Assembly (NCBI GenBank): GCA_032622095.1
Contig: CP136064.1
Span: forward strand, 194,031,948 to 194,095,947
Length of the DNA stretch: 64,000 bases
From: Siphonodentalium dalli
Taxonomy: Eukaryota > Mollusca > Scaphopoda > Gadilida > Siphonodentaliidae
Direction: 5' to 3'
In this document: in pieces, positions 2,790 to 43,957 of the stretch
How positions within the stretch are numbered: the first letter of the stretch is position 1
Layout of the letters: every line of letters starts with the position of its first letter
Program-made: the position numbers and the translations under genes
The notes under the pieces: generated by a model
Told to the model about the DNA's origin: nothing
What the model saw: only the letters and a program-made list of their open reading frames with translations
The model's database searches: none

Positions 2790-5230
2790 AGCTCAACTTA
2801 CTTTGTAAGTTTGAGCTATTGCCATGGGTTGGCGTCCGTCGTCGTGTGTCTGTGTGTGCGTGTGTCGTCAACAATTTCCTTTGGCGCGGGCTACAGGTTG
2901 TACCTATGGTCTGATCTTTATGAAATTTGTCATGAATGTTGACATTGACATGTAGATGGAAACGGGTCAATTTGGGTTCATTCGGCCAAAAAACATGGCC
3001 GCTGGTGGCCATCTTGGATTTCAAAATTAAATCCATTGGCGGGGTCTACAGGTCGTACTGTTCTTCTGATCACCATGAAATTTGTCATGGATGTTAATAT
3101 TGACATGTAGATGGGAACAAGACATTTTGGGGTCGTTCGGCCAAAAAACATGGCCGCCAGCAGCCATCTTTGATTTTACTCTTTGCATGACTAAATCCTT
3201 CGGCGCGGGCTACAGGTCGTAGCTTTGGTCGGATCTTCATGAAATTTGTCATGGATGTTAATATTGACATGTAGATGGTAACGAGTTATTTTGGGGTCGT
3301 TCGGCCAAAAAACATGGCCGCCAGCAGCCATCTTGGATTTTACTCTTTGAATGACTAAATCCTTTGGCGCGGGCTACAGGTCGTAACTTTGGTCAAATCT
3401 TCATAAAATTTGTCATGAATTTTGACATTGACATGTAGATGGGAATGAGTCATTTTGGGGTCATTCGGCCAAAAAACATGGCCGCTGGTGGCCATCTTGG
3501 ATTTCAAAATTAAATCCATTGGCGCGGGCTACAGGTCGTACTATTCGTTTGATCATCATGAAATTTGTCATGGATGTTAATATTGACATGTAGATGGGAA
3601 CGAGTCATTTTGGGGTCGTTTGGCCAAAACACATGGCCATCAGCAGCCATCTTGGATTTTACTCTTTGCATGACTAAATCCTTTGGCGCGCGCTACAGGT
3701 CGTAGCTTTGGTTGGATCTTCATGAAATTTGTCATGGATGTTAACAATGACATGTAGATGGGAAAGAGTCCTTTTGGGGTCATTCGGCCAAAAAACATGG
3801 CCACCAGCAGCCATCTTGGATTTTACTCTTTGCATGACTAAATCCTTTGGCGCGGGCTACAGGTCGTACCTTTGGTCTGATCTTTATGAAATTTGTCATG
3901 AATGTTAATATTGACATGTAGATGAGAACGAGTTATTTTGGGGTCGTTTGGCCAAAAAACATGGCCACCAGCAGCCATCTTGGATTTTACTCTTTGCATG
4001 ACTAAATCCTTTGGCGCGCGCTACAGGTCGTAGCTTTGGTTGGATCTTCATGAAATTTGTCATGGATGTTAAGAATGACATGTAGATGGGAAAGAGTCCT
4101 TTTGGGGTCATACGGCCAAAAAACATGGCCGCCAGCAGCCATCTTGGATTTTACTCTTTGCATGACTAAATCCTTTGGCGCGGGCTACAGGTCGTACCTT
4201 TGGTCTGATCTTTATGAAATTTGTCATGAATGTTAATATTGACATGTAGATGGGAACGAGTTATTTTGGGGTCATTCGGCCAAAAAAACATGGCTGCCAG
4301 CAGCCATCTTGGATTTTACTCTTTGCATGACTAAATCCTTTGGCGTGGGCCACAGGTCGTAGCTTTGGTCGGATCTTCATAAAATTTTGTGTATGGTCCC
4401 ACAAATGGCCGGATTTAGTGTACAGTCCCCCTTTAAACTTAAGTACACATGGTCTTTTCATAAAAAAACATCAAAGGAATTATATCCTGTAAAGGAAGAT
4501 GTTAAACAGCTAGGATATCCTCATTTTAAGAATACACCACATCTCATTTTTCATTGACATGTAGATGGGAACGAGTCATTTTGGGGTCATTTGGCCAAAA
4601 AACATGGCCGCCAGCAGACATCTTGGATTTTACTCTTTGCATGACTAAATCCTTTGGCGCGGGCTACAGGTTGTAGCTTTGGTCGGATCTTCATGAAATT
4701 TGTCATGGATGTTAACAATGACATGTAGATGGGAACGAGACCTTTTGGAGTCATTTGGCCAAAAATCATGGCCACCAGCAGCCATCTTGGATTTTACTCT
4801 TTGCATGACTAAATCCTTTGGCACAGGCTACAAGTCGTATCTTTGGTCAGATCATAATGAGATTTGTCATGGATGTTAACAATGACATGTAGATGGGAAA
4901 CGGGTCATTTTGAGGTCATTCGCCCAAAAAATATGGCCGGCAGCAGTATTTTACTCTTTACATGACTAAATCCTTTCACATAGGGTACTGGTCGTATCTT
5001 TTGTCGGATCATCATGAAATTTGTCATGGATGTTAACAATGACATGTAGATGGGAACGAGTCCTTTAGGGGTCATTCGGCCAAAAAACATGGCCACCAGC
5101 AGCCATCTTGGATTTTACTCTTTGCATAACTAGGCCTTTCAACTTTCCACATTCCTAATCACTCCATTGACTGTAACACATGAAATTATTCCCTTTCGAA
5201 GTTGAGCTACAGTGTCATTGACACTTTCAT
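2790..5230 (+). mobile_element. Family D satellite-core element, copy 1
   Basis: The 5' end is a hairpin, AGCTCAACTTACTTTG/TAAGTTTGAGCT, followed by a GTCCGTCGTCGTGTGTCTG microsatellite-like tract. The core is about 14 tandem units of ~160 bp (GGCGCGGGCTACAGGTCGTA ... TTGTCATGGATGTTAA ... CATGGCCGCCAGCAGCCATC). The 3' end is AGTTGAGCTACAGTGTCATTGACACTTTCAT, given here in pieces: AGTTGAGCTAC, then the hairpin AGTGTCATTGACACT, then TTCAT. The microsatellite plus ~160 bp core resembles bivalve pearl-type elements. Short frames in it merely repeat the unit. Other copies: 28129-29822 (-), 31046-32919 (+), 35769-36647 (+, degraded). Confidence 0.8.
4392..4556 (+). repeat. Copy of 2358-2520 inserted in the D array
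   Basis: About 160 bp interrupting one satellite unit matches the right end of the family N MITE and its unique 3' flank (GGTCCCACAAATGGCCGGAT, then ACTTAAGTACACATGGTCTT, then ACACCACATCTCATTTTTCA). It replaces the AAATTTGTCATGGATGTTAA part of the unit, after which the array resumes at TGACATGTAGATGGGAACGA. Confidence 0.8.
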
Positions 5231-6620: not shown

Positions 6621-6856
6621 TTAAACCATTTCTTTACTAAATACTCATTGACGAGTAGTTCCCTTAGGAAATGTTTGTTGAACTTATCTGAACATTTCCC
6701 ACCAAAGCATTTGAATCCTTTCTTCACCTAGTTATTAGTTTTTTGTCTGTCTCTCATCTGCTTTTATTACCTGACATTCCGCCATATGAATAATAGAACA
6801 TTCCAATGTATACTGTTATAACTGGGTGGGAGAATCCATTTAGTATAGAAAGGGTT
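6621..6856 (-). repeat. Family I MITE, copy 3
   Basis: Inverted relative to copy 1: it begins TTAAACCATTTCTTTACTAA and ends ATCCATTTAGTATAGAAAGG plus GTTA. Internal AACTTATCTGAACATTTCC and CATTCCAATGTATAC match the other copies. Confidence 0.7.
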
Positions 6857-21760: not shown

Positions 21761-24700
21761 GTTTGTCTTCTGGATATTTTCAGCAACATCAATTAACCCT
21801 TCCATGACTGGAGATTCCTGAAATGTTGCTAAAACCCGGTGCCAATGCATTCTCTGATATGCGAGTCTCTCATAGGGAGCCTGGCATATATGAGAACACA
21901 TTGGCCTAACAATATTTACCTTGACATTGTAAGCCAGTTCATTCTCTTATCTCCCATTGGGAGACTTGCATATATAACAGAATGCACTGGCACAGGTCTT
22001 TAATGCTGCACCAGTACGGCTCCTGTTATGAAAGGGTTAAAAATATATTTATTATTCCAGACCTCCAGTTACAACAAGATATGCTTTAATTGTTTAAAAT
22101 AAAATCTAATTTATATCTCTATGGTATTTATCTCACTGAGAAATATGACAGAAACTATTTCTGCATGTTCTTCTTGGTATTGATGTTTTTACCGACTTTT
22201 ATATTTTTGGCACATTTTCCCCACTATGAATGCCTTGGGTCCCTTTAAAGATTAGAAACCCATTTCTGATTTCTCCCATTGGATTCATACATGTATAAAT
22301 GGGAATGATTGAGCTGCTAATTGTCTTCAGAAACCTGTCTCCCAATGTGCTTTAAAGATGTATTCATGGTTCCAGAAACCAGTTAAACTATAACAACCTA
22401 TAAATTCTAAGTTAACATAGTTTTATGTTTGAAAAAAAACGGGATGTATTATGTTATTAGTCTTTCCGACCATTTGCTTTTTTCTCTGTAGGCCTTCTAA
22501 ATGGAATGAAATTTGGTATATGAGTTTACTAGCATAAAATACAGGTCAAGTTCGAATTTGGGTTTTGCCCACCAATTTTCACCTGATTTATGGCCCGTTG
22601 TTGAAATTACAATGGGCGTATCTTGTCACGCCCTGGCGATGATCTTGTAATAATTTATTCCACTGAAATTTTTTTTTTAAACCATATGTGACATAGAAAC
22701 TAGACTTATGAATTCAAAAGAATGTCAATTTGTTATTGATAAAGTAATCAAATCATTTTTGGTGTCCCTATAAAACATAAAAACATAAATGTTTAGAAAA
22801 TTCAATATCAAATAAGATAGCATCTTACAGTAATGCCATAAATAATCAACTCCTTAACCACAGCAGAATTATGGGTAACTCTTCAGGATTTAGTCGGAAA
22901 TATGGCTTGTTGCCATTCATCGGAAAGTTCTCACCCATAATTCTGCTGTGGTTAAGGAGTTGATTATTTAGGGCATTACCGTAGCTTCCTCATGTCATTC
23001 CATTTGTGTTATTTTATACACTGAAATCTAAATAATTTTATATAATTACGGTAATAAGTTTAAAAAAAAATTACCTGGACCCTGAATACATCTTCAATCG
23101 TATAATTTCAAATATAGAACATTTATCAAATAAATATATAGTGAATTATTTATCTAACAAAGTAGACAAACAGGTAGTACTGCTTGGCTTGTTAAATTGT
23201 ACACGAGAATCTCACTCAAATTTGGTGTGGAGGGTCGCCATCTGGAGTGTTACAACAAGACTGTCCAATGACTATTGACATCAACATTTTCCTTTCTAAA
23301 GTTAACCCTTTCTATACTAAATGGATTCTCCCATTCAGTTATAAAGTGTACATTGGAATGGTCTATTATGCCTTTGGAGATTGTTCAGGTAATAAAAGCA
23401 GAAGACAGACAGAAAAACAGATAATACCAGAGCAGAATGAATCATATTCATAGGTTCAACAAACTTATTATCTGAACATTTCTTGACGCAACTATTCATC
23501 AAAGAGTATAGAGAAAAGGTTTATAAATATCCTTCTTTGTTTATCTGTTCATCTGGGCAGATATATCACCTATGGGTTATTAGTCCTTAAAGGATTACAA
23601 TGCTCATGAAACAACAAAACTATATCGGAAAGCCACCCCTATTGTGATCACAATAATCCAAGTCCCATAAAAATCGCGTAATAAATAAGCCGAGAAATAA
23701 ATAAAAAATACCGCCACCGGTTGTCGGCTATCTCCGTCGCAAAACCTCGCATGACGTCAAGCGAGGTAAACTAATTAAAAACACGGAATCGGAGTCGGAG
23801 TTAATTGTGTCTACCTATATGACGATGGAAAATCCGGAATAGACATCAGCGCGTGAGCGTGATGGAATTACTGCGGGGCATATCAATAGCATTGTGTACA
23901 CGTGTTTAATTGTCATCGCGCGGTGAGCTATATTCACTTGTGATTTGTCTTAAGCGCTGTTTGGAAAGTTATTGTTTTAACAAAAATACTATAGAAGGCC
24001 GATTGAGCGGGGTAGGTAACACTTTCGTGTCAAAAATAAAGCTTATAAAAACACGAGCAGGCATGTGAACTCTATTCGGGTGCGTGTTCACGATGTTGCT
24101 TTAATTTTCCGTATATATGCCTCGAGTGTCCCGTATTTACAATCATTCATTAGTGACAATGCCATATAAATGCAGTGTTTTCGGCTGTGGCCGGTCTAGT
24201 GACTCTCAGTTAGGTATAATGCTGTATTCATTTCCAAACGATTTTCGTTTACGTGCCATTTGGCGGGATTTCTGTGGGAAACCCGTTGCGCAAAATCAGA
24301 AACCGATTACATATACCAAATAAAGAGCGTTTAATTTGACAAGTCAGTCATGGTTACGAATACATACAATTGCAGTTAAAGTGGAGAGTATGTTGAATAA
24401 TTCACGATAACAACTATTCTAAGTCGATTCCCCATTGCCTTCACCATGGCTCAATAAAGAGCGTTCCATGTTAAGAGTTTTCCTAATATGGTACGAATAA
24501 AAAGAGTTTAATAAAGCGGAAATTGCTATGACTTGGAAGGATATATAAAGCATGCATATCGGAAGTTTGTGTACATGTATTGACCTGTATTGGTGTAATC
24601 AGTAAACAAAAATCACGATGACAACTGTTCTAAGTCCAGTCCCTTTACCTTGACGCAATAAAGAGCGTTCACTACTACGAGATATTGCGAATAAAAAACG

Positions 24701-27700: not shown

Positions 27701-30700
27701 ATATTGTTTATTATATCAATGATATTACTTTTTTTCAGAGACTGACAATCTGACAGATAAAATTGACCTCACAATTTGTTTGGGGGGAGACGGTACTCTC
27801 TTGTATGCTTCCACACTTTTCCAGGTAGGTGTGCTAGTACATTAATATTATCATTGTTTTATTCCACTGAATTCATATTCTTAAATTCATTTCAGATTCT
27901 TGTTATTATTTTGCTGAAAACTTACATAAATGGACATGCCTTGTTTGAACCTCAAAATTATGTATACATAATTTGGAAAGAGGTATCTCAAAACATACCA
28001 ACATGGAAGATTTCCAAACAAATTTGTCGATATAACGCTGAAATATTTTTATTTTTTTCTGATATTTTTCGATAAATTTGAGATCATTTCATTTCTGCTG
28101 GTTCAATATTTTTAGTCAGTATTCAATAATGAAAGTGTCAATGACACTGTAGCTCAACTTAGGTAGGGGAATAATTTAATGGTCGACAGTAAATGGAGGA
28201 ATAGGAAAAGTGCTAATTGAAATGTCTAAGTAAGACTAGATGTATATGTCAATATCAACATTCATAACATGTTTCATAATGATCGGATCAGGGATGTGGT
28301 GATTATGGTGTGCCAAAGGATTTATTGATGCAAAGAGTAAATTCTAAAATGGCCACTGGCAGCCATGTTTTTTTCCGAATTACCCCAAAATCCCATCTAC
28401 AGCCTTTACAAATCTCATAATGATCTGATCAAAGGTATGACCTGTAGCCTGTGCCAATGGATTTAATCATGCAAAGAGTAAAATCCAAGATGGCTGCTGG
28501 CGGCCATGTTTTTTGGCTGAACGACCCCAAAATGACTCGTTTCCCATCTACATGTCATTGTTAACATACATGACAAATTTCATGAAGTTCCGACCAAAGC
28601 TACGACCTGTAGCCCGCACCAAAGGATTTATTCATGCAAAGAGTAAAATCCAATATGGCTGCTGGCGGACATGTTTTTTAGCCAAATGACTCCAAAATGA
28701 CTCGTTCCCATCTACATGTTAATATTAACATCCATGATAAATATCATGATGATCAGACAAACAGTACGACCTGTAGCCCGCGCCAATGGATTGAATTTTG
28801 AAATCCAAGATGGCTGCCAGCGGCCATGTTTTTTGGCCGTATGACCCCAAAATGACTCGTTCCCATATACATGTCAATATCAATATTCATGACAAATTTC
28901 ATAAAGGTCAGACCAAAGGTACGACCTGTAGCCTGCGCCAAAGGATTTAGTCATGCAAAGAGTAAAATCCAAGATGGCTGCCAGCGGCCATGTTTTTTGG
29001 CCGAACGACCCCAAAATGACTCGTTCCCATCTACATGTCAATATTAACATCCATGACAAATTTCATAATGATCAGACGAACAGTACGACCTGTAGCCCGC
29101 GCCAATGGATTGAATTTTGAAATCCAAAATGGCCACCAGCGGCCATGTTTTTTGGCCGAATGACCCCAAAATGACTCGTTCCCATCTACATGTCAATGTC
29201 AACATTCATGACAAATTTCATAAAGATCAGACCAAAGGTACGACCTGTAGCCCGCGCCAAAGGATTTAGTCATGCAAAGAGTAAAATCCAAGATGGCTGC
29301 TGGCGGCCATGTTTTTTGGCCGAACAACCCCAAAATCACTCGTTCCCATCTACATATCATTGTTAACATCCATGACAAATTTCATGAAGTTCCGATCAAA
29401 ACTACGACCTGTAGCCTGCGCCAAATGATTTAGTCATGCAAAGAGTAAAATCCAAGATGGCTGCTGACGGCCATGTTTTTTGACCGAACGACCCCAAAAT
29501 CACTCGTTCCCATCTACATGTCAATATTAACATCCATGACAAATTTCATGATGATCAGACGAACAGCACGACCTGTAGCCCGCGCCAATGGAATGAATTT
29601 TGAAATCCAAAATGGCCACCAGCGGCCATGTTTTTTGGCCGAATGACCCCAAAATGACTCGTTCCCATCTACATGTCAATGTCAACATTCATGCAAAATT
29701 TCATAAAGATCAGACCAAAGGTACGACCTGTAGCCCGCGCCAAAGGAAATTGTTGACGGACCCACGAACGACGGACGCCAAGCCATGGCAATAGCTCAAA
29801 CTTACAAAAGTAAGTTGAGCTAAAAACTGCAACTGTAGACCATGGGAAGATAATCTAGAGCTGATGTTGCTCTGAACATTTATGGTACTACATAATTTTG
29901 ATGAATAAAATGAAGAGAAAGCCGTGCCTGGTGTCTTTTTAATAGTTTCTTGTTAAGATCATGCAGTATACCTTTTCTGGACATTACGTTTCCGATTCAG
30001 AGTTCCGATGAATACATATAATGCTCGCAGAAAGGTCGGTGAGATATTTAATTTATCAACCTATTTCGATACCAGGAAAAATTCAAATGCAACATATTAT
30101 AATGTGTATATTGGATCGCAAACCACCCTGTGGCTTTAATGAATCATAATTTATAGTGAATCCTGGTGAATCCATACCTTATAGTAAAGGCTCCTTCATT
30201 GTCCGGTTCAAATTATGGCTCACCTTGCTTTTTGTTTCATTACATGCTGTCATGCAGGTACTAATACAGTAATGCCCTAAATAATCGACTCCTTAACCAC
30301 AGCAGAATTATGGGTAATATTTCAGGATTTAGTCGGAAATATGGCTTGTTGCCATTCGTTGGAAAGCTCTCACTGAGAACTTTCCGATGAATGGCAACAA
30401 GCCATATTTCCGACTAAATCCTGAAAATTACCCATAATCCTGCTGTGGTTAAGGAGTCTATTATTTTGGGGCATTACTCTATGGTTTGTTATCTATTTAT
30501 TTGTGATGTCTCATCTATAAAGAAATCTAGGAGACATCAGGGCTTGTATTCACCAACTGGGTTTATAAATAGACCAGATAGTTTATACCAGGCCAGACTC
30601 AAGGTGAAGCTCTCTGTGGTCATCGATATGATTGGCATCGCAAATACAGAATTATCCTATCAAGGGAATGTGATGGCTATCATAGATTGGCCTTCGCATG

Positions 30701-33700
30701 TAGCAGTATACATGCTTGGTTCATTTCAATTATGGGCAGCGTTTTTGTGTACTAACATCCACAGTCTGGAACATAAAGAGACGGGAAGTATCCACCAGCC
30801 CATTTATATCTTAACCCTTTACCCAACAAAACGGCCAAAAACGCCCAAATAAAGCTTCAACAGCCTAAAATATCTTCGGTCTGTCTCAATAACACCATAC
30901 AAATATGGATATCATTGGAACCGGTTCATTGACCACATTGTGATGGTTACAGTTATGCCCTGTGCCAATGCATTCTCTTATATATGCGAGTCGACCATAG
31001 GTCGCCTCGCATATATAAGAGAATGCATTGGCCTTTGGCCTTTTTAGCTCAACTTACTTTTGTAAGTTTGAGCTATTGCCATGGCTTGGACGTCCGTCGT
31101 CCGTGTGTCCGTGTATCCGTCAACAATTTCCTTTGGCGCAGGGTACAGGTCGTACCTTTGGTCTGATCTTTATGAAATTTTGCATGAATGTTGACATTGA
31201 CATGTAGATGAGAACGAGTCATTTTGGGGTCATTTGGCCAAAAAACATGGCCGCTGGTGGCCATCTTGGATTTCAAAATTCAATCCATTGGCGCGGGCTA
31301 CAGGTCGTGCTGTTCGTTTGATCATCATGAAATTTGTCATGGATGTTAATATTGACATGTAGATGGGAACGAGTCATTTTGGGGTCGTTCGGCCAAATAA
31401 AATGGCCGTCAGCAGCCATCTTGGATTTTACTCTTTGCATGACTAAATTATTTGGCGCAGGCTACAGGTCGTAGTTTTGATCGGAACTTCATGAAATTTG
31501 TCATGGATGTTAACAATGACATGTAGATGAGAACGAGTGATTTTGGGGTTGTTCGCCCAAAAAACATGGCCGCCAGCAGCCATCTTGGATTTTACTCTTT
31601 GCATGACTAAATCCTTTGGCGCGGGCTACAGGTCGTAGTTTTGATCAGAACTTCATGAAATTTGTCATGGATGTTAACAATGACATGTAGATGGGAACGA
31701 GTGATTTTGGGGTTGTTCGGCCAAAAAACATGGCCGCCAGCAGCCATCATGGATTTTACTCTTTGCATGACTAAATCCTTTGGCGCGGGCTACAGGTCGT
31801 ACATATGGTCTGATCTTTATGAATTTTGTCATGAATGTTGACATTGACATGTAGATGGGAACGAGTCATTTTGGGGTCATTCGGCCAAAAAACATGGCCG
31901 CTGGTGGCCATTTTGGATTTCAAAATTCAATCCATTGGCGCGGGCTACAGGTCGTGCTGTTCGTCTGATCATCATGAAATTTGTCATGGATGTTAATATT
32001 GACATGTAGATGGGAACGAGTGATTTTGGGGTCGTTCGGCCAAAAAACATGGCCGCCAGCAGCCATCTTGGATTTTACTCTTTCAATGACTAAATCCTTA
32101 GGTGCGGGTTACAGGTCGTACCTTTGGTCTGACCTTTATGAAATTTGTCATGAATATTGATATTGACATGTATATGGGAACGAGTCATTTTGGGGTCATA
32201 CGGCCAAAAAACATGGCCGCTGGCAGCCATCTTGGATTTCAAAATTCAATCCAGTGGCACGGGCTACAGGTCGTACTGTTTGTCTGATCATCATGATATT
32301 TATCATGGATGTTAATATTAACATGTAGATGGGAACGAGTCATTTTGGGGTCGTTTGGCTAAAAAACATGTCCGCCAGCAGCCATATTGGATTTTACTCT
32401 TTGCATGAATAAATCCTTTGGTGCGGGCTACAGGTCGTAGCTTTGGTCGGAACTTCAAGAAATTTGTCATGTATGTTAACAATGACATGTAGATGGGAAA
32501 CGAGTCATTTTGGGGTCGTTCAGCCGAAAAACATGGCCGCCAGCAGCCATCTTGGATTTTACTCTTTGCATGACTAAATCCATTGGCACAGGCTACAGGT
32601 CATACCTTTGATCAGATCATTATGAGATTTGTAAAGGCTGTAGATGGGAACAAGTCATTTTGGGGTAATTTGGAAAAAAACATGGCTGCCGGTGGCCATA
32701 TTAGAATTTACTCTTTGCATCAATAAATCCTTTGTCACACCATAATCACCACATCCCTGATCCGATCATTATGAAACCTGTTATGAATGTTGATATTGAC
32801 ATGAACATCTAGTCTTACTTAGACATTTCAATTAGCACTTTTCCTATTCCTCCATTTACTGTCGACCATTAAATTATTCCCCTACCTAAGTTGAGCTACA
32901 GTGTCATTGACACTTTCATTTTCTTACATTCTTTAACAATTTTATAATTTTTTCTTTATACATTTTTTAACAATTTTTATAATATTTTTCTACATTCTTT
33001 GACAATTTTATCATTTTTAATATGTGTTAAGCCAATGCATTCTCTTATATATGCGAGGCGACCTATGGTCGACTCGCATATATAAGAGAATGCATTGGCA
33101 CAGGGCCATTCTGTTGGGTAAAGGTTAACACTCATTCCGCGGTAAGATTCAGTCTGAGTCTCTTCCTCTATTTACTGATTTTACCCGGTGGTTGTGCACG
33201 ATTTAGTCGTGAGGCAGTGTCGATTTATAAATGGCAAATATGATAGATTGGGTCAATCATATCGACGATAGTGTGTTTCATAAATGCTATAGCGAAGGTA
33301 CCATGTGCATTCAGATGCCTGAGTATCACACTAATATTGTGATAATTGACATCGGGTGTGTTGGAGTTGTATTTTGTATGATGTCAATGCGTCTTTCTGG
33401 GACATTTAATGCTCATCAGGGTATGTTGGAGTTGTACTTTGTATAACGTCAATGCGTCTTTAAGGCCATTTAATGCTTATCAGGGTGTGTTGGAGTTTTG
33501 TATTTTGTATGAGTTCAATGCGTCTTTCTGGGACATTTAATGCTGTATTTTGTATGACGTGTCTGACGATCATGTCATAGTTATACCCCCACTTTTGAAG
33601 AAATTGGGGGGTATACTGGATTGACTGCGTCTGTCCATCCATCCGTCACGCTTTCTCCGTCCGTCCGACCTCATAACTTGAACAACTATGAACCGATTTC

Positions 33701-36700: not shown

Positions 36701-39700
36701 AGGTGCTCAATGGATGCACATCACCATCTTCACCGTCTGGGAATTGAAATCTGTGTCTAGGACTCCCATAGCAGATGAGGCCATGTAGAATGAGATCCCC
36801 AGAGAATGAATTTGGTGACGCTAGCTCACTGTATGGGTGGCGTCACTAAATTCAGCCTCGGGGGACCTCATTCTGAAATTTCCGGCACCATATTTTCAGG
36901 CCTGTGGACATATCATATCAAAGAGACATCCCTGTTCCTCTCTTTTCAGGAAATACATCCTTGCAGCTACGATACAGATTGAAATGTGTGATATGCAAGA
37001 GAGAAATTTGCAATGATTCCAGTAAAGTGCCACTGACAAATTCTGTCCCTGTGGAACCTAAAACCGCACGGTCTCATTTTCTAGTGAGTATCTCAGCCAA
37101 CTAGTGAATATATACCACTGGAAAATAATGGGTGTTTTCTTATTAATAATTGTAACCTAACATTGGTATTACTGGAGAATAATTGCCGCACATCTTATTC
37201 AAATTTAGAAAGAATATTCTGCATTGACTATTGTATGTATCATCAAAAATAGGCCTACTGTATAGCACCATGTGTTAACTCCTGTCTGGTATTAGGCTCG
37301 CCCCCATCTTTTTGAATAATATTTTTTCGAGGGCCATATCTCCGTTTAGAACCACCCGAAATTGCCAGACATTGGAATATGGTAAATATACATGCCGTGT
37401 CTGATGGCGATGTCATAGTTGAAGATGATGTCGCAAGAATGACTCTTTAGAAGAGATAATGCTGATATATCAATTGTTACTTATTATGCCCCCGACTTGA
37501 AGTCGCCGGGTATATAGTCGCCGTCTCCGTCCGTCCGTACGTCCGTCCGTCCGTACAAACATTTTGCATTATTGTTCAGCAACCGCTGGGCAGATTTAGC
37601 TGATATTTGATATGGTGATAGAGCAGCATGGGGGAACAGCTACATGCATAGCGCGGGTTTCGTCCACCAATTTTCACCAGAGTTATGGCCCTTGTTTTAC
37701 TTAGAAAATTCAATTTTGTCCGTCCGTACAAACATTTTGCATTATTGTTCAGCAACCGCTGGGCAGATTTAGCTGATATTTGGTATGGTGATAGAGCAGC
37801 ATGGGGGAACAGCTACATGCATAGCGCGGGTTTCGTCCACCCATTTTCACCAGAGTTATGGCCCTTTTTTTACTTAGAAAATTCAATTTTCCTCTTGATT
37901 TTTGGGTTTCCAGATGATAGCGTGAGCTTTGGTGGTACAATTGCAAATCCCGTATTTTTGTGGATCAGTTATATGAAAATACATGTCAAGTGTGAATTTG
38001 GGTATGATCTGATGATTTTTGCCAGAGTTATGGCCCTTTTTTCAACTTAGAAATCCGTCCGTACGTCCGTCCATACAAACATTTTGCATTATTGTTCAGC
38101 AACCGCTCGGCAGATTTAGCTGTTATTTGGTATGGTGATAGAGCAGCATGGGGGAACAGCTACTTGCATAGCGCGGGTTTCATCCACCCATTTTCACCAG
38201 AGTTATGGCCCTTTTTTTACTTAGAAAATTCAATTTTGTCCGTCCTTACAAACATTTTGCATTATTGTTCAGCAACCGCTGGGCAGATTTAGCTGATATT
38301 TGGTATGGTGATAGAGCAGCATGGGGGAACAGCTACATGCATAGCACGGGTTTCATCCACCCATTTTCACCAGAGTTATGGCCCTTTTTTTACTTAGAAA
38401 ATTCAATTTTGTCCGTCTGTACAAACATTTTGCATTATTGTTCAGCAACCGCTGGGCAGATTTAGCTGATATTTGGTATGGTGATACCGTCCATGCTTAA
38501 TCCGAATTGCTACGGTCGGGGGCAAATGCCACGCGACAGCATACCTCTTGTAATAAAATACACTGTATGTATGTGTTTTTATTAATCAATTATTCATCAA
38601 TTATTCCATCCCTAAATGAGCCCTAAATGATGTACATTGAAAACTGCTGGGAGGAAAATTACCTAGGTGGTGTCCAGCGACAATGCAATGGGAATGACCA
38701 TCCGTGCACAAATAACATTAATGTGCCAAATGGCGATGTCACAAATGAAGGCAGGCAGAAAATTACCTTGAAAGTGATGTCTTGTGACTACGTAATGGGA
38801 ATGTCTGTTGGCGTTTGCAAGTAAACAAATTGAATTTTCTGCTATCTTTTTTACACTACATTGCTTTGATCGGTACTGTAAACACGCAACACAGAAAACA
38901 TACAGACTGTGACATGTGCTCATGATGTAACAATAGTTACTGCTAGAGTACACTGCAGCTGAGCGGTAATTCCTATGATGTTGGCTTATATTGCTATTGG
39001 GTTAGAAAAGTCATTGTATCATCAACGCTGAACGGGAATCTGAGTGAAGACTGGTTACTATCACTTTTAATAGTGGTTACTTATTATCAAATAAAAACAC
39101 TTGAGTTCCTTGAGGGCCTTATCTTCGTTTAGGCTCACTTATAATTTTTAAATATTTCATTTTATAAGTAGCATTTCTAGTTCGGTTCATCAGATATGTA
39201 AGAGGCAAAAACTAAATTTCTGTGCAGAATATGAAATAAACTTAACAAATAATAATTGAAATTCAATTCCAGGTAATAAATGAAGTTGTCATTGACAGGG
39301 GACCATCCTCATATCTATGTAACCTTGAACTGTATATAGAAGGAAGACTCGTCACATCTGTACAGGGTGATGGTGAGTTGATATATTTATGTTTGTGAAG
39401 TGGATTTGAGCACCTTATTCAAATCAATCCAAGAATTTTACTTTCTGTTACACGACATGGAATGTCCAAGGGCTTGTGAACATAATCGAGGACACTGATT
39501 TCTGCAGATTAATAGAATGTTACGATTTAATAACTATATCTTAGACCTGGAAAAATGATTCAAGTTCATCATTCAATACCAATTAATTTACCTGGCTATA
39601 CTTGTAATGACTTATGTAGAAGTGCACAAGACAATGAGAGAAGTGGAATAGGCAATAGATCAGTAATAATCATGGACGGAGATTTCACTCTCGAACAGGC

Positions 39701-42700
39701 AGGTGACCGGATTATGTCAAGCAAGATGCTGTTAAATATATTTCTCTTCTGGATAGTTATGGTTTGGATTGTGTTTAGACTGACATGTAAACTCTTTTGG
39801 GCTTCAACTTCTCAAGTTATGTACCTGTAAATTAATAGCGTGTTCCCTTGACCATGTGTAGGGTCATCCATTATTATTATAGTCTGGATAATCCCTATCA
39901 ATGATGTTATTAATTCACATTTTAAGGAATATTTCATATATACACCAACTTCTGCCAAAACTGTTATCATTTATAATCAATATTTTGGTATATTGCAGTG
40001 ACAATTTTGAAACAATATTTGAAATTGTTAATACCGTACAACTCTACATTGGGATGGTTTATTATTCATCTGGAGGGATGTTCAGGAAATCTAAACAGAC
40101 GACCGATGGATGAACAAATAATAGACGTGCATTCATTTTATTTTGTCAAAATGTTCAGATAATAAGTTCAACAAACAGACTATGGTCCTTTGTTGAAATT
40201 ATTATGTGAACATTTCATAAGGAAACTACTCATCAATGAGTATTTAGTGAAGAAAAGAGTTGGGCCATCATGACAACAATACTGTTTGCTATTATGAAGC
40301 ACTCTCCCTTTTCTCCCCAGGTTTAATCTTATCCACACCGACTGGCAGAACAGTGTATGCCATGTCTCAGCATGTATTCTTTTATCCCCAGGTCTAATCA
40401 TATCCACACCAACTGGTAGTACAGCATATGCCATGGCAGCAGGTGCTTCATTTATTCATCCAAACGTGCCAGCAATACTGATCACACCCATTTGTCCGCA
40501 TTCATTATCATTCCGACCAATCGTCGTTCCTGCAGGAGTCGATATTAAGGTGGGTTACTAGCTGTCTATTTAGTCAATTATCCAGATGTTAAAACCAATT
40601 AAATAATTTATGATTTCTTAATATATAGTATAATTATTGTAAAAATACAGGCAATAGGGAGGTAATCTACCTGTGCAGCTGTCGCTGTCAGAGAAGCAGA
40701 AAAAGACTAATTTATTTCAGCACATTGAGTAAACATTTGACAGCCAATTAGTCTGTAATTTATCAGTTGTCAATGGATTCCATACATTTTTGTAACATCG
40801 CTCACACAAGGTTTCGCATATAGTGACTATTGCATCCATAATATGAAATTACATACCATTTCAAGGACCAGCCTGGAAGTTTCAAATTGGGAGAAGTCAC
40901 TTCTCCCTGTTTGGTCATTAGGGAGAAATGGACTGTCACCAGGGAGAAGTAACAATGGCTGAAGTTCAATTTATACCCCAACATCAGCCTTCTATGATCC
41001 AATAAGTATTATGAAATACAAGAGCCCATTTATAAAACCAGTATGGTGAGTTAGAACACTTATAATCAGGAATACACTTTAAATATGCTGTTGAGACATA
41101 TGCATACTGATATGTGAGAGAGAAGTCACTTCTCCCTTGAACAAAAAGAAGGGAGTGGCACATTTTAAGGAGAAGATGTCTCCCCAAGTCGCCCTCCACG
41201 ATGGTCTCTGACCCATTCAAATTTTATAGTAAACATAGACTTTCAAAACTAAACCAAACAGAACATTTCTGAGGTAAGGATAGGACATGGAAGATTATTC
41301 TTAAAGTTAATTGCTAAACTCTTACAAAGTGTACAATATGGTATCATGTTAACTATATTTTCTGCTGTTGTATGAAGATGACATTGTCAGGAAAAGAATA
41401 GTCACATGTGATGGTGGGGTAGTAGGTCTATATCGGAAATAGTATAGTAACTTGTAGCTGATCAGAACGTAATTCGTGTGTGATCAAATATAATATCAAG
41501 TTTCACATCCAGTAAGAAACAGTGTCTTTGATTGGTCAGAAAGCCTCTTAATAAATTACATATCTCCGTCAAAGTTATCTTGCCCACTGAACTATATGGT
41601 ATATTCCCAATTTAACTAGGAAGGGTTAACAACCCCTGAGTTGAAAACAGTACGAAAATTCTATGGTACATTTTATCATGGTTCATGACCTCCTGTAATA
41701 TCCGGCCACGTGATCTCCGATTCCACAAGACCAATCGCCAGGATGATTCATCCTCTCTTTTCCTAGTTGGGCCCTATGTTCAAATTCATCATGCCAAGAT
41801 TTAGTTGAACATATACTCCAAGACACCAATATCACACCATGTTACAATCAAGCAGCCACAATAAGTTATAATATGTATAGTATAATTAGCAGTTCCAAGA
41901 ATACAGTAATGCCATAAATAATTGACTCCTTAACCACAGCATAATTATGGGTAATTTTTCAGGATTTAGTCGGAAATATGGCTTGTTGCCATTCATTGGA
42001 AAGCTCTCAGTTAGAGCTTTCTGATGAATGACAACAAGCCATATTTCCGACTAAATCCTGAAAAATTACCCATAATTCTGCTGTGGTTAAGAAGTCGATT
42101 ATCTAGGGCATTACTGTATGTGTAGCTTTAACATGACTGATTACACTTTCCTTTGTTTATGTGGCTGATATTAATATTCTTAATCTAGTTATCTTCACTT
42201 GCATATCTAAGTTTTTTGTTTGTACTCATTCTAGGTTGTGCTGTCACCTAGTGCTCGTAATTCGGCATGGGTGTCATTTGATGGGCGGAACAGACAAGAA
42301 ATTAATCATAGTGACAGGTTAGTTCTAACTTTCATCCATTGTATCAGATTTGCGAGATAGAGTGACTGTACACATGTTGGCAGCAGAAGAATTGTCACAT
42401 GAGCTGCAATCATTTGTTTACATTAGTTATTGTCACATGAGAGTGATTGGGGTACCCTTGTGTCAACACAAATGTAGCTTTATATTTATTACATATCCCG
42501 AACACAAAACAAAAGTTATAAATTATGATCCAGAGCTCGTTGGATCAACTTATTGCTTTGCAATGATTTTGCATTGCAGACCTTTGAAATTCCCATCCTG
42601 TCACAATCAGCAACAAAAATTACGTTTACGTATCTTAATGGTGAACACGCCTGAAAATATGGTCCGGGATGTTAGCAGAATGAGGTCCCCAGAGGGTGAA

Positions 42701-43832
42701 TTTAGTGACGCTACCCCACACAGCGGTATAGTGTCACCAAATTCATCCTCTGAGGACCTCATTCTACATGGCTTCATCTGCTATGGGAGACCTAGACACA
42801 GATTTAACTTCCAACATGGTAAAGTGCACCCATTGGGAACCTCCATTATGCATTGTGTCGTCTGCCAATCTGGGAGTACATGTACATGTATATAAAGAAA
42901 CTACATTAAAAAAGAAAAAACTTGTTAATTTGATTATTTTAATAAAGAAACTTTCCAGAGAAGATGAGGCCTAAGCAGAATGAGGTCTCCAGAAGGTGAA
43001 TTTATTGATGCTAGCCAACTGTGCAGGGTAACATCACTAAATTCACCCTCTAAGGACCTCATTCTGCAAATGTCCAGCACCATATTTTGAGGCCTGATGG
43101 ACAATTTGGGTCGCCCTTGAATGATTTGTCAGAAAAATTATCACACAGGATGGTAATATTGTACTTATTGACAATACAACAATGTTGCTGAGACGAACAT
43201 ATCGGGGCGATTTGGTCGATGTCGCATCAGTGACGGGGTCAGGGGAGGGTGTGTCAAAAAAGGGTTCAATTTTTTTTTTGCTCCCATCCTTTCTATACTG
43301 AATGGATTCTCCCATTCAGTAATAAAAGTATACATTGGAATGGTCTATTATTCATTTGGATGGGTGTTCAGGTAATAAAAGCCGATGACAGACAGATAAA
43401 AAAGATAATAGCAGTAGATAAGTATTCATATTCATTAGTTGGAAATGTTTAGATAATATGTAAAAAAAAAAACCATTGAACTTATTATCTGAACATTTCC
43501 TAAGGGAACAAAGTACTTGTCAATGATTATTTAGTATAGAAAGCATTAATAAAATGGATTGAATTGAATTTATTATCACTATAAGCATACATATTTGTTC
43601 AATACATTGTGTTGTTCTACGGCAAATGATAGCTTTTGATTTTTTATTCAGTATGAGGATTACAACTGCCCAGTATCCGCTACCAGCTATATGTGCTAAG
43701 GACCATATGTCTGACTGGTTTGAAAGTCTCGCTGAATGCCTCAACTGGAATGTCCGCAAACAACAGAAGTCTCTGTCAGCCATTTCCAGCTCAGTGAGTC
43801 TCGATTCTATGGATGCCGGAGTGAACAGCTGA
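21631..43832 (+). CDS. NADK: NAD kinase, nine exons, N-terminus missing
   Basis: This is the coding span of an animal NAD kinase, which phosphorylates NAD+ to NADP+ using ATP; in animals this form is normally cytosolic. Nine exons join with compatible phases: 21631-21760, 26780-26888, 27739-27824, 34461-34563, 36950-37083, 39273-39372, 40392-40549, 42235-42317 and 43652-43832. They give about 360 residues. Family hallmarks appear in the right order: VLVIKK near the start of the domain, [10 protein letters not shown] (catalytic Asp), FGSMGFL, the NE motif in [26 protein letters not shown], and a C-terminal [17 protein letters not shown]. All junctions are GT-AG. The first base of exon 1 completes a codon begun upstream, so at least one 5' exon lies before 21631; I could not find it. 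Introns range from 0.9 to 6.6 kb and are packed with MITEs and satellite-core elements. The family assignment is firm; the exact isoform is not. Confidence 0.96.
21793..22040. repeat. Family C MITE, copy 3
   Basis: TTAACCCTTCCATGACTGGAG to GTTATGAAAGGGTTAA (ends TTAACCCTTCC and AAAGGGTTAA). The hairpin order is inverted relative to copy 1. It begins 33 bp into NADK intron 1. Confidence 0.85.
22041..22827 (+). other. Intron; single degraded satellite-type unit
   Basis: 22440-22625 resembles one unit of the family E type (AATGAAATTTGGTATATGAG, AGGTCAAGTTCGAATTTGGG, CCACCAATTTTCACC, TTTATGGCCC). Otherwise AT-rich and featureless. Confidence 0.5.
22828..22980. repeat. Family A MITE, internally deleted copy
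   Basis: CAGTAATGCCATAAATAATC to GATTATTTAGGGCATTACC. Most of the right arm's inner half is missing. Confidence 0.8.
23302..23523 (+). repeat. Family I MITE, copy 4
   Basis: Best left end of the family: TTAACCCTTTCTATACTAAA then TGGATTCTCCCATTCAG. The right end AGTATAGAGAAAAGGTTTAT is degraded. TTAA plus CCCTTT suggests piggyBac-type mobilisation. Confidence 0.8.
24159..24323 (+). CDS. THAP zinc-finger fragment
   Basis: The frame is open from an ATG at 24117, but the natural THAP start is the second ATG at 24159, because THAP proteins begin M-P and reach the first Cys within a few residues. It encodes [14 protein letters not shown], then YSFPND and [12 protein letters not shown]-x4-C, FP, and a downstream Trp are the first half of the THAP DNA-binding C2CH zinc finger. 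The frame stops after 54 residues, before the second Cys-x2-His half. It may be a first exon spliced to a downstream exon, or a fragment of a THAP or P-element-type gene. I found neither the second half nor a strong donor. It sits in NADK intron 1 on the same strand, in a CpG-richer stretch. Confidence 0.55.
   Translation: MPYKCSVFGCGRSSDSQLGIMLYSFPNDFRLRAIWRDFCGKPVAQNQKPITYTK
24400..24690 (+). repeat. Diverged ~205 bp tandem duplication
   Basis: ACGATAACAACTATTCTAAG ... CAATAAAGAGCGTTCCATG (24405-24470) recurs as ACGATGACAACTGTTCTAAG ... CAATAAAGAGCGTTCAC (24613-24672). The same AATAAAGAGCGTT also ends the THAP fragment at 24320. Confidence 0.55.
25151..25226. promoter_or_regulatory. Cluster of CACGTG palindromes
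   Basis: Four CACGTG-centred sites occur within about 75 bp: ACCACGTGGT, ACCACGTG, ATCACGTGAT and ATCACGTGAC. CACGTG is the E-box core bound by bHLH factors of the USF, MYC/MAX and MiT/TFE type; TCACGTGA resembles the CLEAR-type site. About 1.4 kb upstream, at 23752-23759, lies TGACGTCA, a full CRE. The region 23690-25260 is richer in CpG than its surroundings. Together this could be an internal promoter or enhancer in NADK intron 1, serving NADK or the THAP fragment. That role is inferred. Confidence 0.4.
25509..26697. mobile_element. Family B element, copy 4, interrupted by family G
   Basis: CAAGCCTGAATTTAGTGTGT at the left and, inverted, CACACTAAAGTCAGGCTTG at the right. The host element is split at AATGTTAA|TTTGAGAC by 25764-26533. 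Removing the insert leaves ~419 bp with the same layout as copies 3 and 8. Confidence 0.8.
25764..26533 (+). mobile_element. Family G Helitron-like element in a family B host
   Basis: It starts TTATACCCCCCGCAATGAAG, followed by TGTCTGTCCGTCCGTCCG. The core is about three units of ~170 bp (TTTTATTCCTACATTTTT, CATGGGAACTTGTGCACCTG, GACGTCTGTCCGACATTTTT, GGAGTTATCCCCC). It ends with the perfect hairpin GTCCC-ATT-GGGAC, ten bases, and CTAG, followed by T. Sister family B elements supply the empty site AATGTTAATTTGAG, placing the insertion exactly between A and T. A-T targeting, 3' hairpin and CTAG are Helitron hallmarks; the 5' TC is not present. Confidence 0.8.
26780..26888 (+). CDS. NADK: NADK exon 2 of the window
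   Basis: The acceptor is TATTCTCAG and the donor is GAAG|GTATGG; phase 0 in, phase 1 out. It encodes [18 protein letters not shown] and ends KLKTFSEG. This corresponds to the segment of animal NADK after the first helix (usual form: M.VYVEKKVLEDP). The intron before it, 5.0 kb long, contains the THAP fragment, the CACGTG cluster and a family B element carrying a nested Helitron-like element. Confidence 0.92.
26988..27142. repeat. Nested hairpin repeat in NADK intron 2
   Basis: The outer stem is ATCTACAACGAGTCCCCAGT / ACTGGGGACGAGTTGTAGAT, continuing TTATAGCGGAA / TTCCGCTATAA. The inner stem is TAAATTAGGTCTG / CAGACCTAATTTA. It looks like a small foldback MITE. Confidence 0.75.
27143..27738. 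other. Intron sequence, nothing recognised
   Basis: AT-rich intron 2 sequence up to the exon 3 acceptor. No repeat family was identified. Confidence 0.5.
27739..27824 (+). CDS. NADK: NADK exon 3 of the window, GGDG motif
   Basis: The acceptor is a T-rich tract ending CAG at 27738 and the donor is CCAG|GTAGGT; phase 1 in, phase 0 out. It encodes [20 protein letters not shown] followed by [13 protein letters not shown] is the invariant NAD kinase motif whose aspartate is catalytic and which binds the nucleotide phosphates, so this exon alone identifies the family. The reading frame is open past the donor into the intron, but the similarity to NADK stops at the splice site. Confidence 0.96.
28129..29822 (-). 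mobile_element. Family D satellite-core element, copy 2, inverted
   Basis: Reverse-strand copy, complete at both ends: ATGAAAGTGTCAATGACACT at the left and GTAAGTTGAGCT at the right, with about ten ~160 bp units. Its unique right-terminal flank (TGGTCGACAGTAAATGGAGG) is shared with copy 3. It lies in NADK intron 3, opposed to copy 3, about 1.2 kb away. Confidence 0.85.
30267..30478. repeat. Family A palindromic MITE, copy 8
   Basis: Full-length palindrome from CAGTAATGCCCTAAATAATC to TTATTTTGGGGCATTACT, in NADK intron 3. Confidence 0.85.
30811..33128. mobile_element. Family L TTAA element split by family D
   Basis: TTAACCCTTTACCCAACA at the left and TGTTGGGTAAAGGTTAA at the right are inverted. 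Inside are CTGTGCCAATGCATTCTCTT hairpins, one on each side of an inserted family D element (31046-32919). The intact relative is 44254-44652. Confidence 0.85.
31046..32919 (+). mobile_element. Family D satellite-core element, copy 3
   Basis: AGCTCAACTTACTTTTGTAA/GTTTGAGCT 5' hairpin, CGTCCGTCGTCCGTGTGTCC tract, about eleven ~160 bp units, then CTAAGTTGAGCTACAGTGTC and the ATTGACACTTTCAT end. It sits in the AT-rich spacer between the two hairpins of the family L element, so it is the younger insertion. Confidence 0.85.
33361..33560 (+). repeat. 45 bp minisatellite, left part
   Basis: Units GTATTTTGTATGAYGTCAAT / GCGTCTTTCTGGGACATTTA / ATGCT (45 bp), three to four diverged copies, some separated by CATCAGGGTATGTTGGAGTT. 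They continue at 34180-34290 beyond the family H insertion. Confidence 0.75.
33581..34167 (+). mobile_element. Family H Helitron-like element
   Basis: It begins TTATACCCCCACTTTTGAAG / AAATTGGGGGGTATAC (5' hairpin), then GTCCATCCATCCGTC and CGTCCGTCCGACC. The core is about three ~150 bp units (AACTTTAACAAATATGAACC, GATTTCAATAAT). It ends with the hairpin GCACTCGAGTGC then ACACCTCTTG before T. It is inserted in the 45 bp minisatellite. Confidence 0.75.
34180..34290 (+). repeat. 45 bp minisatellite, right part
   Basis: Two and a half further units of the 33361-33560 array. The unit is 15 codons long and open in one frame ([15 protein letters not shown]); this is a by-product of unit length, not evidence of a gene. 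Confidence 0.75.
34461..34563 (+). CDS. NADK: NADK exon 4 of the window
   Basis: The acceptor is TATTTTTCAG and the donor is GAAG|GTAAAA; phase 0 in, phase 1 out. It encodes [20 protein letters not shown] then [15 protein letters not shown]. This matches the conserved block PPVMAFHLGSLGFLTPF of animal NADKs, which follows directly after [11 protein letters not shown]. It lies 6.6 kb after exon 3; that intron is the largest in the gene and holds two opposed satellite-core elements. Confidence 0.95.
34564..35768. other. Intron 4, unique part
   Basis: A short repeat TTTTTGGGCCATTGTCAA / TTTTGGGCCATTTGA-type occurs at 35100, 35130 and 35710. Open frames at 35338-35678 overlap in two frames and show no family motif. 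Confidence 0.45.
35769..36647 (+). repeat. Family D element, degraded copy 4
   Basis: It retains TGACATTGACATGTAGATGG, CATTTTGGGGTCATTTGGC and TGGCCATC blocks in increasingly diverged units, and ends AAGATGAGCTAGAGAGTCAT / TGACACTCACTTTCAT. The 5' hairpin is lost. Confidence 0.7.
36655..36902. mobile_element. Family B, subfamily 2, truncated copy
   Basis: It contains GAATGAGATCCCCAGAGAAT, GGTGACGCTAGC and the right end GCACCATATTTTCAGGCCTG. The terminus matches the element at 42648-43096. The left half is incomplete. It ends 48 bp before NADK exon 5. Confidence 0.7.
36950..37083 (+). CDS. NADK: NADK exon 5 of the window
   Basis: The acceptor is CTCTTTTCAG and the donor is CTA|GTGAGT; phase 1 in, phase 0 out. 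It encodes [20 protein letters not shown] and then a polar stretch ending PKTARSHFL. The start matches the family's RSRLKV strand. The remainder is the variable insertion loop of animal NADKs, which differs between species. A degraded satellite-core element and a family B end occupy the intron just upstream. Confidence 0.92.
37484..38550 (+). mobile_element. Family E Helitron-like element
   Basis: It begins TTATGCCCCCGACTTGAAGT / CGCCGGG (5' hairpin), then CGTCCGTCCGTACGTCCG. The core is about five ~170-180 bp units (ATTGTTCAGCAACCGCTGGG, CAGATTTAGCTGATATTTGG, AGAGCAGCATGGGGGAACAG, GAGTTATGGCCC). It ends GGTCGGGGGCAAATGCC ... ATACCTCTTG before T. Both ends agree with families G and H. Open frames inside are unit translations. 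Confidence 0.8.
38551..39272. other. Intron 5, unique part
   Basis: A short low-copy stretch preceding exon 6. Opposed 65-96 codon open frames at 38627-38953 have no recognisable motif. Confidence 0.45.
39273..39372 (+). CDS. NADK: NADK exon 6 of the window, NE motif
   Basis: The acceptor is AATTCCAG and the donor is GATG|GTGAGT; phase 0 in, phase 1 out. It encodes [20 protein letters not shown] then [14 protein letters not shown]. The NE pair and the following [10 protein letters not shown] are conserved in animal NAD kinases and contribute to NAD binding. It ends on the first base of a glycine codon, which pairs with the GT that opens exon 7. Confidence 0.95.
40034..40260 (+). repeat. Family I MITE, degraded copy 6
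   Basis: It carries CATTGGGATGGTTTATTATT, AGATAATAAGTTCAACAAAC and CATCAATGAGTATTTAGTGA, ending AGAAAAGAGTTGGG. It ends 60 bp before the decoy exon start at 40321. Confidence 0.65.
40321..40391 (+). pseudogene. Decoy duplicate of the start of NADK exon 7
   Basis: This 71 bp copies the acceptor and first bases of the next exon. It is preceded by CTTTTCTCCCCAG and would read [15 protein letters not shown], against [15 protein letters not shown] in the true exon. It diverges after about 45 bases and ends in the real exon's acceptor. It has no donor of its own. If its acceptor is used, translation runs in phase to a TAA at 40395-40397. Phase and motif are conserved, so it looks like a tandem duplication of the exon start. 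Whether it is spliced in (as an NMD switch) or is dead is not visible from sequence. Confidence 0.8.
40392..40549 (+). CDS. NADK: NADK exon 7 of the window, STPTGSTAY motif
   Basis: The acceptor is TTTTATCCCCAG and the donor is AAG|GTGGGT; phase 1 in, phase 0 out. It encodes [20 protein letters not shown] followed by [20 protein letters not shown] and [12 protein letters not shown]. The STPTGSTAY block is the second universal NAD kinase signature, and the [15 protein letters not shown] block is typical of the animal enzymes. An incomplete copy of its first ~45 bases with a separate acceptor lies immediately upstream. Confidence 0.96.
40550..41903. other. Intron 7, with repeated GAGAAGTCACTTCTCCC palindromes
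   Basis: GGGAGAAGTCACTTCTCCC is a perfect palindrome at 40889-40907. A near-identical AGAGAAGTCACTTCTCCC occurs at about 41118-41136, with GGGAGAAGTAAC and GGAGAAGATGTCTCCCC nearby. No exon was recognised. Confidence 0.5.
41904..42116. repeat. Family A palindromic MITE, copy 9
   Basis: Full-length palindrome with TA on both sides; CAGTAATGCCATAAATAATT to GATTATCTAGGGCATTACTG. It lies in NADK intron 7. Confidence 0.85.
42235..42317 (+). CDS. NADK: NADK exon 8 of the window
   Basis: The acceptor is CTCATTCTAG and the donor is GACAG|GTTAGT; phase 0 in, phase 2 out. It encodes [20 protein letters not shown] then QEINHSD plus two bases of a serine codon. This is the family's [14 protein letters not shown] block. 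A family A palindromic MITE ends about 120 bp upstream in the preceding intron. Confidence 0.95.
42648..43096. mobile_element. Family B, subfamily 2, full copy
   Basis: Ends GCCTGAAAATATGGTCCGGG and, inverted, CAGCACCATATTTTGAGGCC. Two inverted GCAGAATGAGGTCCCC modules flank the usual centre (CACCCATTGGGAACC, CTGCCAATCTGGGAG). In NADK intron 8. Confidence 0.75.
43283..43549 (+). repeat. Family I MITE, copy 5
   Basis: CCTTTCTATACTGAATGGAT at the left and ATTTAGTATAGAAAGCATTAA (TTTAGTATAGAAAGC, TTAA) at the right. It ends about 100 bp before the terminal NADK exon. Confidence 0.75.
43652..43832 (+). CDS. NADK: NADK terminal exon
   Basis: The acceptor is TTTTTATTCAG at 43641-43651; phase 2 in. 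It encodes (S)[39 protein letters not shown] and a serine-rich tail ending DAGVNS, then TGA at 43830-43832. The [15 protein letters not shown] end is diagnostic of animal NADK, while the short acidic or serine tail is variable. A family I MITE ends about 100 bp before the acceptor. A family B element starts about 125 bp after the stop. No AATAAA polyadenylation signal was recognised close downstream. Confidence 0.96.
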
Positions 43833-43957
43833 TGTACATCATGAGAATTAGTTACCAGGGAACACTGTTATATTGGTGTGTGGTTAGAATTAGAGTAATC
43901 TACAACCATTGTTGAAAAGAGGCCTCAGCTTGTAAGTGCTGTTACGGAGCTTTCAAA

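Follow-up and report, generated by a model that had tools for sequence, protein, structure and literature searches.

The plus strand of the window analysed here (a 64-kb stretch, 64,000 nucleotides, of Siphonodentalium dalli contig CP136064.1, to which all positions refer) carries an animal-type NAD kinase (NADK) gene, in which the 3′ splice site of one conserved exon is present twice. Nine exons joined at GT..AG sites yield 343 stop-free codons followed by a stop; this model begins inside an exon, and the exon numbering counts from that model start. Eight of the nine exons are matched in order by a tblastn probe (E <= 0.009). For the exon at 36950–37083 the match to this probe is weak (E 14); it was taken into the model because its frame and its splice sites fit. 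The exon with the doubled boundary is the seventh (40392–40549, plus strand): it carries over a G from position 39372, splices into the open 343-codon frame and ends at the donor AAG|GTGGGT. Together with part of the preceding exon, it matches human-type NAD kinase chains in phmmer searches (for example 3pfn, E 3.3e-38) as well as the Pfam family NAD_kinase_C (E 2.8e-29).

The acceptor that opens this exon, CTTTTATCCCCAG (40379–40391, plus strand; referred to below as the productive acceptor), is a direct copy of an upstream acceptor, CTTTTCTCCCCAG (40308–40320, same strand). The segments 40308–40364 and 40379–40435 are identical at 49 of 57 positions (86%) with no gap, and TCCCCAG|GT is common to both acceptors; the earlier note had thus correctly placed the two copies 71 bp apart from start to start, each following ...CCCCAG. 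Gapped blastn aligns 40308–40385 with 40379–40455 (81% over 79 columns). The local alignment score of 75 cannot be attributed to chance, as it lies far above the maximum of 29 obtained among 2000 mononucleotide shuffles; the repeat is absent from the output of Tandem Repeats Finder at a minimum score of 40. The exonic part runs ungapped for 44 bases (40321–40364) before gaps of 2 nt and 1 nt, so that the copy of the exon's first 45 bases reported in the earlier note is real, with an ungapped length of 44 and a gapped continuation. Taken alone, the extension beyond 40364 is weak (equalled by 3.6% of 5000 shuffles), and upstream of 40308 there is no further similarity between the copies (76% of 5000 shuffles score at least as high). 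The copy of the exon start therefore occupies 40321–40385 on the plus strand, with homology that is free of gaps as far as 40364 and continues with gaps up to 40385, and overlaps the tract of the downstream acceptor at 40379–40385; because the matches overlap there, the duplication junction is placed at these positions. A T-rich stretch is present at the end of the intron and again about 55 to 65 bases inside the exon. Both copies carry the tract, the AG and the exon start, that is, a short tandem duplication spanning the 3′ splice site.

The two copies differ at 8 of the 57 positions (Jukes–Cantor distance 0.155), plus indels. Heterozygosity in marine invertebrates is well below this divergence of 14%, which argues that the duplication is probably fairly old, contrary to the recent origin that had been considered for it. 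Since the divergence is accompanied by decay in one copy, an assembly artefact made of two merged alleles was judged unlikely. Short tandem duplications of this type are commonplace in the window. Self-matches at offsets of 20–300 define 32 regions, of which 22 were judged simple by hand and 10 were arrays that were left out. Units like the 22 simple ones would fall across one or more of nine acceptors with a probability of 0.33, which drops to 0.08 if the 10 units of <=110 bp alone are counted, with the NADK duplication itself included in the list behind both figures.

Which of the two copies codes can be judged from the residues that they specify. Their amino acids differ at three places, the upstream copy having L, R and V where the downstream copy has I, S and A. 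In phmmer alignments the downstream S and A equal the residues of both human-type chains and yeast POS5; at the I/L place, human-type chains have V and the yeast chain has A. The motif was readable in 77 of the 81 loci fetched, with I, V, S or M at the first place, S, T or A at the second and A, G or I at the third; L, R and V at these places were found in none of the 77. These loci comprise one contig from a viral collection and the best 80 of at least 554 confirmed relatives, all 80 being titled as bacteria; no metazoan relative is among the loci fetched. Each locus was read at the first position, in whichever frame, that fitted the motif pattern, and four loci had no fit. Because peptides of the downstream copy served as queries and the most similar loci were retained, the count is skewed in favour of that copy. 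In addition, the alignment of the copies reveals small gaps that put the upstream copy out of frame. The changes at conserved residues and the frame-shifting gaps together point to the upstream copy as the decayed one: the downstream copy opens an intact, conserved coding exon, and the upstream copy no longer holds up as coding sequence.

The consequences of using each acceptor follow from the model. The preceding exon (39273–39372, plus strand; supported by tblastn and by the model frame) ends at the donor ATG|GTGAGT. When it is joined to 40392, the frame is open to the stop of the model. When it is joined to the upstream acceptor (junction 40320|40321), the phase is kept (G|GT..) and the model translation runs into a TAA at 40395–40397 (plus strand), which is codon 229, in agreement with the earlier note; the 71-bp offset is indeed not a multiple of three. 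Premature stops located more than 50–55 nt upstream of an exon junction usually elicit nonsense-mediated mRNA decay (NMD). The TAA sits 152 nt before the end of the exon, beyond this distance, and two coding exons lie downstream on the plus strand: the following exon at 42235–42317, supported by tblastn and the model frame, and the last coding exon of the model at 43652–43840, which reaches the stop codon and whose end was set by hand a few bases beyond it. Truncation and NMD are therefore predicted for transcripts spliced at the upstream acceptor. With an intact, top-scoring acceptor followed by such a stop and by two further exons, the arrangement is what would be expected of a poison acceptor, as had been proposed. 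We may then ask whether it is a regulated one, in which an RNA-binding protein or the state of the cell would shift splicing to 40321, so that NMD would lower NAD kinase and the supply of oxidized nicotinamide adenine dinucleotide phosphate (NADP+). The strength and integrity of the upstream acceptor, the position of the premature stop and the lack in the copy of any frame-keeping GT donor apart from one of zero length are all consistent with this. On the other hand, the predicted structure does not differ clearly between the acceptors, and among the titles and abstracts of the open-licence literature consulted, none on NADK names NMD or alternative splicing. We regard regulation of this kind as quite improbable.

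The upstream acceptor is presumably at the original acceptor position, and its strength is at the centre of the problem. Acceptors, donors and branch sites were scored with approximate matrices of vertebrate type. By this measure, the upstream acceptor is the best of the nine scored (15.26, compared with 12.76 for the productive acceptor), and its score is reached by 0.03% of the plus-strand AGs in the window; the other seven model acceptors range from 3.81 to 13.78. There is thus a tension, in that the higher-scoring acceptor comes first and the protein needs the second. A rival view is that the upstream acceptor is silent, either because local silencers act on it or because no usable branch site serves it; the duplication would then be a remnant without effect on the mRNA, and the two acceptors would not compete. 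Branch-site candidates shortly before 40321 are indeed poor: within 40 nt the top score is 1.08, an AG intervening, and the next candidate scores 3.81 at 47 nt, again with one AG intervening. However, the branch sites of the productive acceptor are not clearly better (2.65 at 22 nt, and 4.43 at a distance of 50 nt, where three AGs intervene), so that branch-site scoring with these approximate matrices favours neither acceptor clearly; moreover, six of the seven other model acceptors score below the productive one. A fully silent acceptor is, in our view, rather unlikely.

RNA structure hiding one of the acceptors was also considered and rejected, as the mean unpaired probability is 0.45–0.61 at the upstream acceptor and 0.53–0.54 at the downstream one, with no clear difference. 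A 301-nt fold of the region has a z of -2.42, with 3 of 100 shuffles as stable, and its predicted extra stability may come from a strong hairpin at 40149–40215 (27-nt arms, 93% complementary, 13 nt between them). This hairpin lies inside an intron stretch, 40046–40258, that looks like a repeat element: it resembles the regions at about 1688–1908 (75%) and at 322–553 (71%), it also matches the minus strand piecewise at 430–510 and 6629–6810 (70–91%), and it ends about 60 bases short of the upstream acceptor. At gathering thresholds, Rfam gave no matches within the window.

The donors inside the upstream copy bear on what else the duplication could do. Splicing from the GT sites at 40353, 40355, 40364 and 40374 would insert 32, 34, 43 and 53 nt, respectively; as none of these lengths is divisible by three, the frame would be lost, as it would with the GC sites at 40359 and 40370. 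Only two donors keep the frame: the GT at 40321, with an insert of zero length, and a GC at 40345, with a 24-nt insert and a 47-nt intron. The earlier claim that use of the upstream acceptor always truncates the enzyme consequently holds for its plain use, but would fail only if a second splice from either of these two sites removed the copy in frame. An in-frame mini-exon inside the copy was rejected, because every GT donor except that of zero length breaks the frame. Mutually exclusive tandem exons were likewise rejected, the upstream copy being partial, frame-shifted and devoid of a frame-keeping GT other than the zero-length one.

The zero-length donor itself would permit removal in two steps, comparable with intron gain by AGGT duplication: a first splice to 40320|40321 followed by a second from the GT at 40321 to the AG ending at 40391, through which a nascent intron or zero-length exon would still lead to a correct mRNA. 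CAG|GT is present in both copies, and the intervening 71 bases do run from GT to AG. There is also a published precedent in a potato RNA-dependent RNA polymerase gene, where a tandem genomic duplication over an intron end and an exon start made a new intron (PMC4974935). The anatomy is like that of NADK, and in both cases the copies differ by point changes. The potato intron, however, acquired a GTAAG donor from the upstream exon and was confirmed as a working intron by RNA sequencing, whereas the NADK case was considered here from genomic sequence and its sole frame-keeping GT donor is poor. This GT scores -0.48 in its genomic context and -3.56 after the first splice, below the scored donors of the model, six of which score from 5.66 to 10.80 and a seventh 6.99, the donor at 21761 being outside the scored set. 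The poor donor makes a new intron unlikely, and among the explanations weighed here it is the one in which we place the least credence.

We consider the duplicated acceptor to be probably an unregulated remnant, leaky or silent, of an ordinary short tandem duplication. A single event of about 70–71 bp crossing the intron/exon boundary would account for the sequence, with its junction in the short T-rich stretch shared by the intron end and the exon, which would fit a duplication sealed at short similarity. About 13 bases from the end of the intron would have been copied, together with 58 to 65 from the start of the exon, depending on where the junction falls in the T-rich overlap. The downstream copy would have gone on coding, and the upstream copy would have been absorbed into the intron, its coding content decaying. 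Both acceptors may still compete to some degree, the enzyme being made via the downstream one; use of the upstream acceptor would give an mRNA cleared by NMD, and this would be noise that the cell tolerates, not a switch. The simplest account is that the duplication is tolerated because enough splicing reaches the second acceptor, and some unproductive transcripts would be expected.

Several observations weigh against this reading. First, translation through the upstream acceptor retains a match to Pfam NAD_kinase_C (residues 1–40 of 49, E 1.3e-9), mostly owed to the preceding exon. Second, synonymous differences are in excess (4 on 12.2 sites, versus 3 on 32.8; p 0.07). This might be a trace of former constraint on the coding content of both copies, although an excess of this kind can also arise if the downstream copy is the only one constrained. 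Third, the upstream acceptor is free of decay and outscores the productive one. A strong first acceptor should be costly, and its survival over 14% divergence might reflect selection. This argument is weakened by the fact that the changes in the tract (1 of 13 positions) and in the exon part (7 of 44) do not differ in rate (Fisher p 0.67). In the most far-reaching reading, the animal has retained the stronger upstream acceptor because it diverts transcripts to NMD and so determines how much NAD kinase is made, NADP+ supply being tuned by the choice of 3′ splice site; we find this very improbable.

Comparison with known systems suggests that the NADK duplication is a fresh instance of an already known kind of event. 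In Drosophila, tandem duplication of AG/GY sites has been described (PMC2891723), and so has a model in which NMD buffers newly arisen introns (PMC2809761). These cases share with NADK the duplicated CAG|GT and a premature stop in the duplicated segment, with NMD backing up imperfect splicing; the Drosophila duplications, however, lie within coding exons, whereas that of NADK adjoins an existing intron and lengthens it. The resemblance extends to poison exons and unproductive splicing coupled to NMD, as reviewed in PMC11062102, since a premature stop is predicted on use of the upstream acceptor; for the NADK acceptor, however, use, regulation and conservation are hypothetical.

Longer tandem repeats also occur in the window. 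Tandem Repeats Finder reports arrays of a 164-bp unit at 2877–5132, 28408–29747 and 31129–32632 (about 14, 8 and 9 copies, respectively), the second being in opposite orientation by its consensus; the three likely belong to one satellite-like family. The same program finds a 173-bp unit repeated about 5 times in an array at 37545–38486, inside the intron that precedes the NADK exon at 39273.

With a strong first acceptor and a second one required by the protein, NADK offers a situation in which the cell's choice of the second acceptor is directly measurable. If the upstream acceptor is unused, the duplication would be an ordinary mutation fossil; if it is used, NADK would be a clean natural case in which a random duplication gave a core metabolic gene a route to unproductive splicing.
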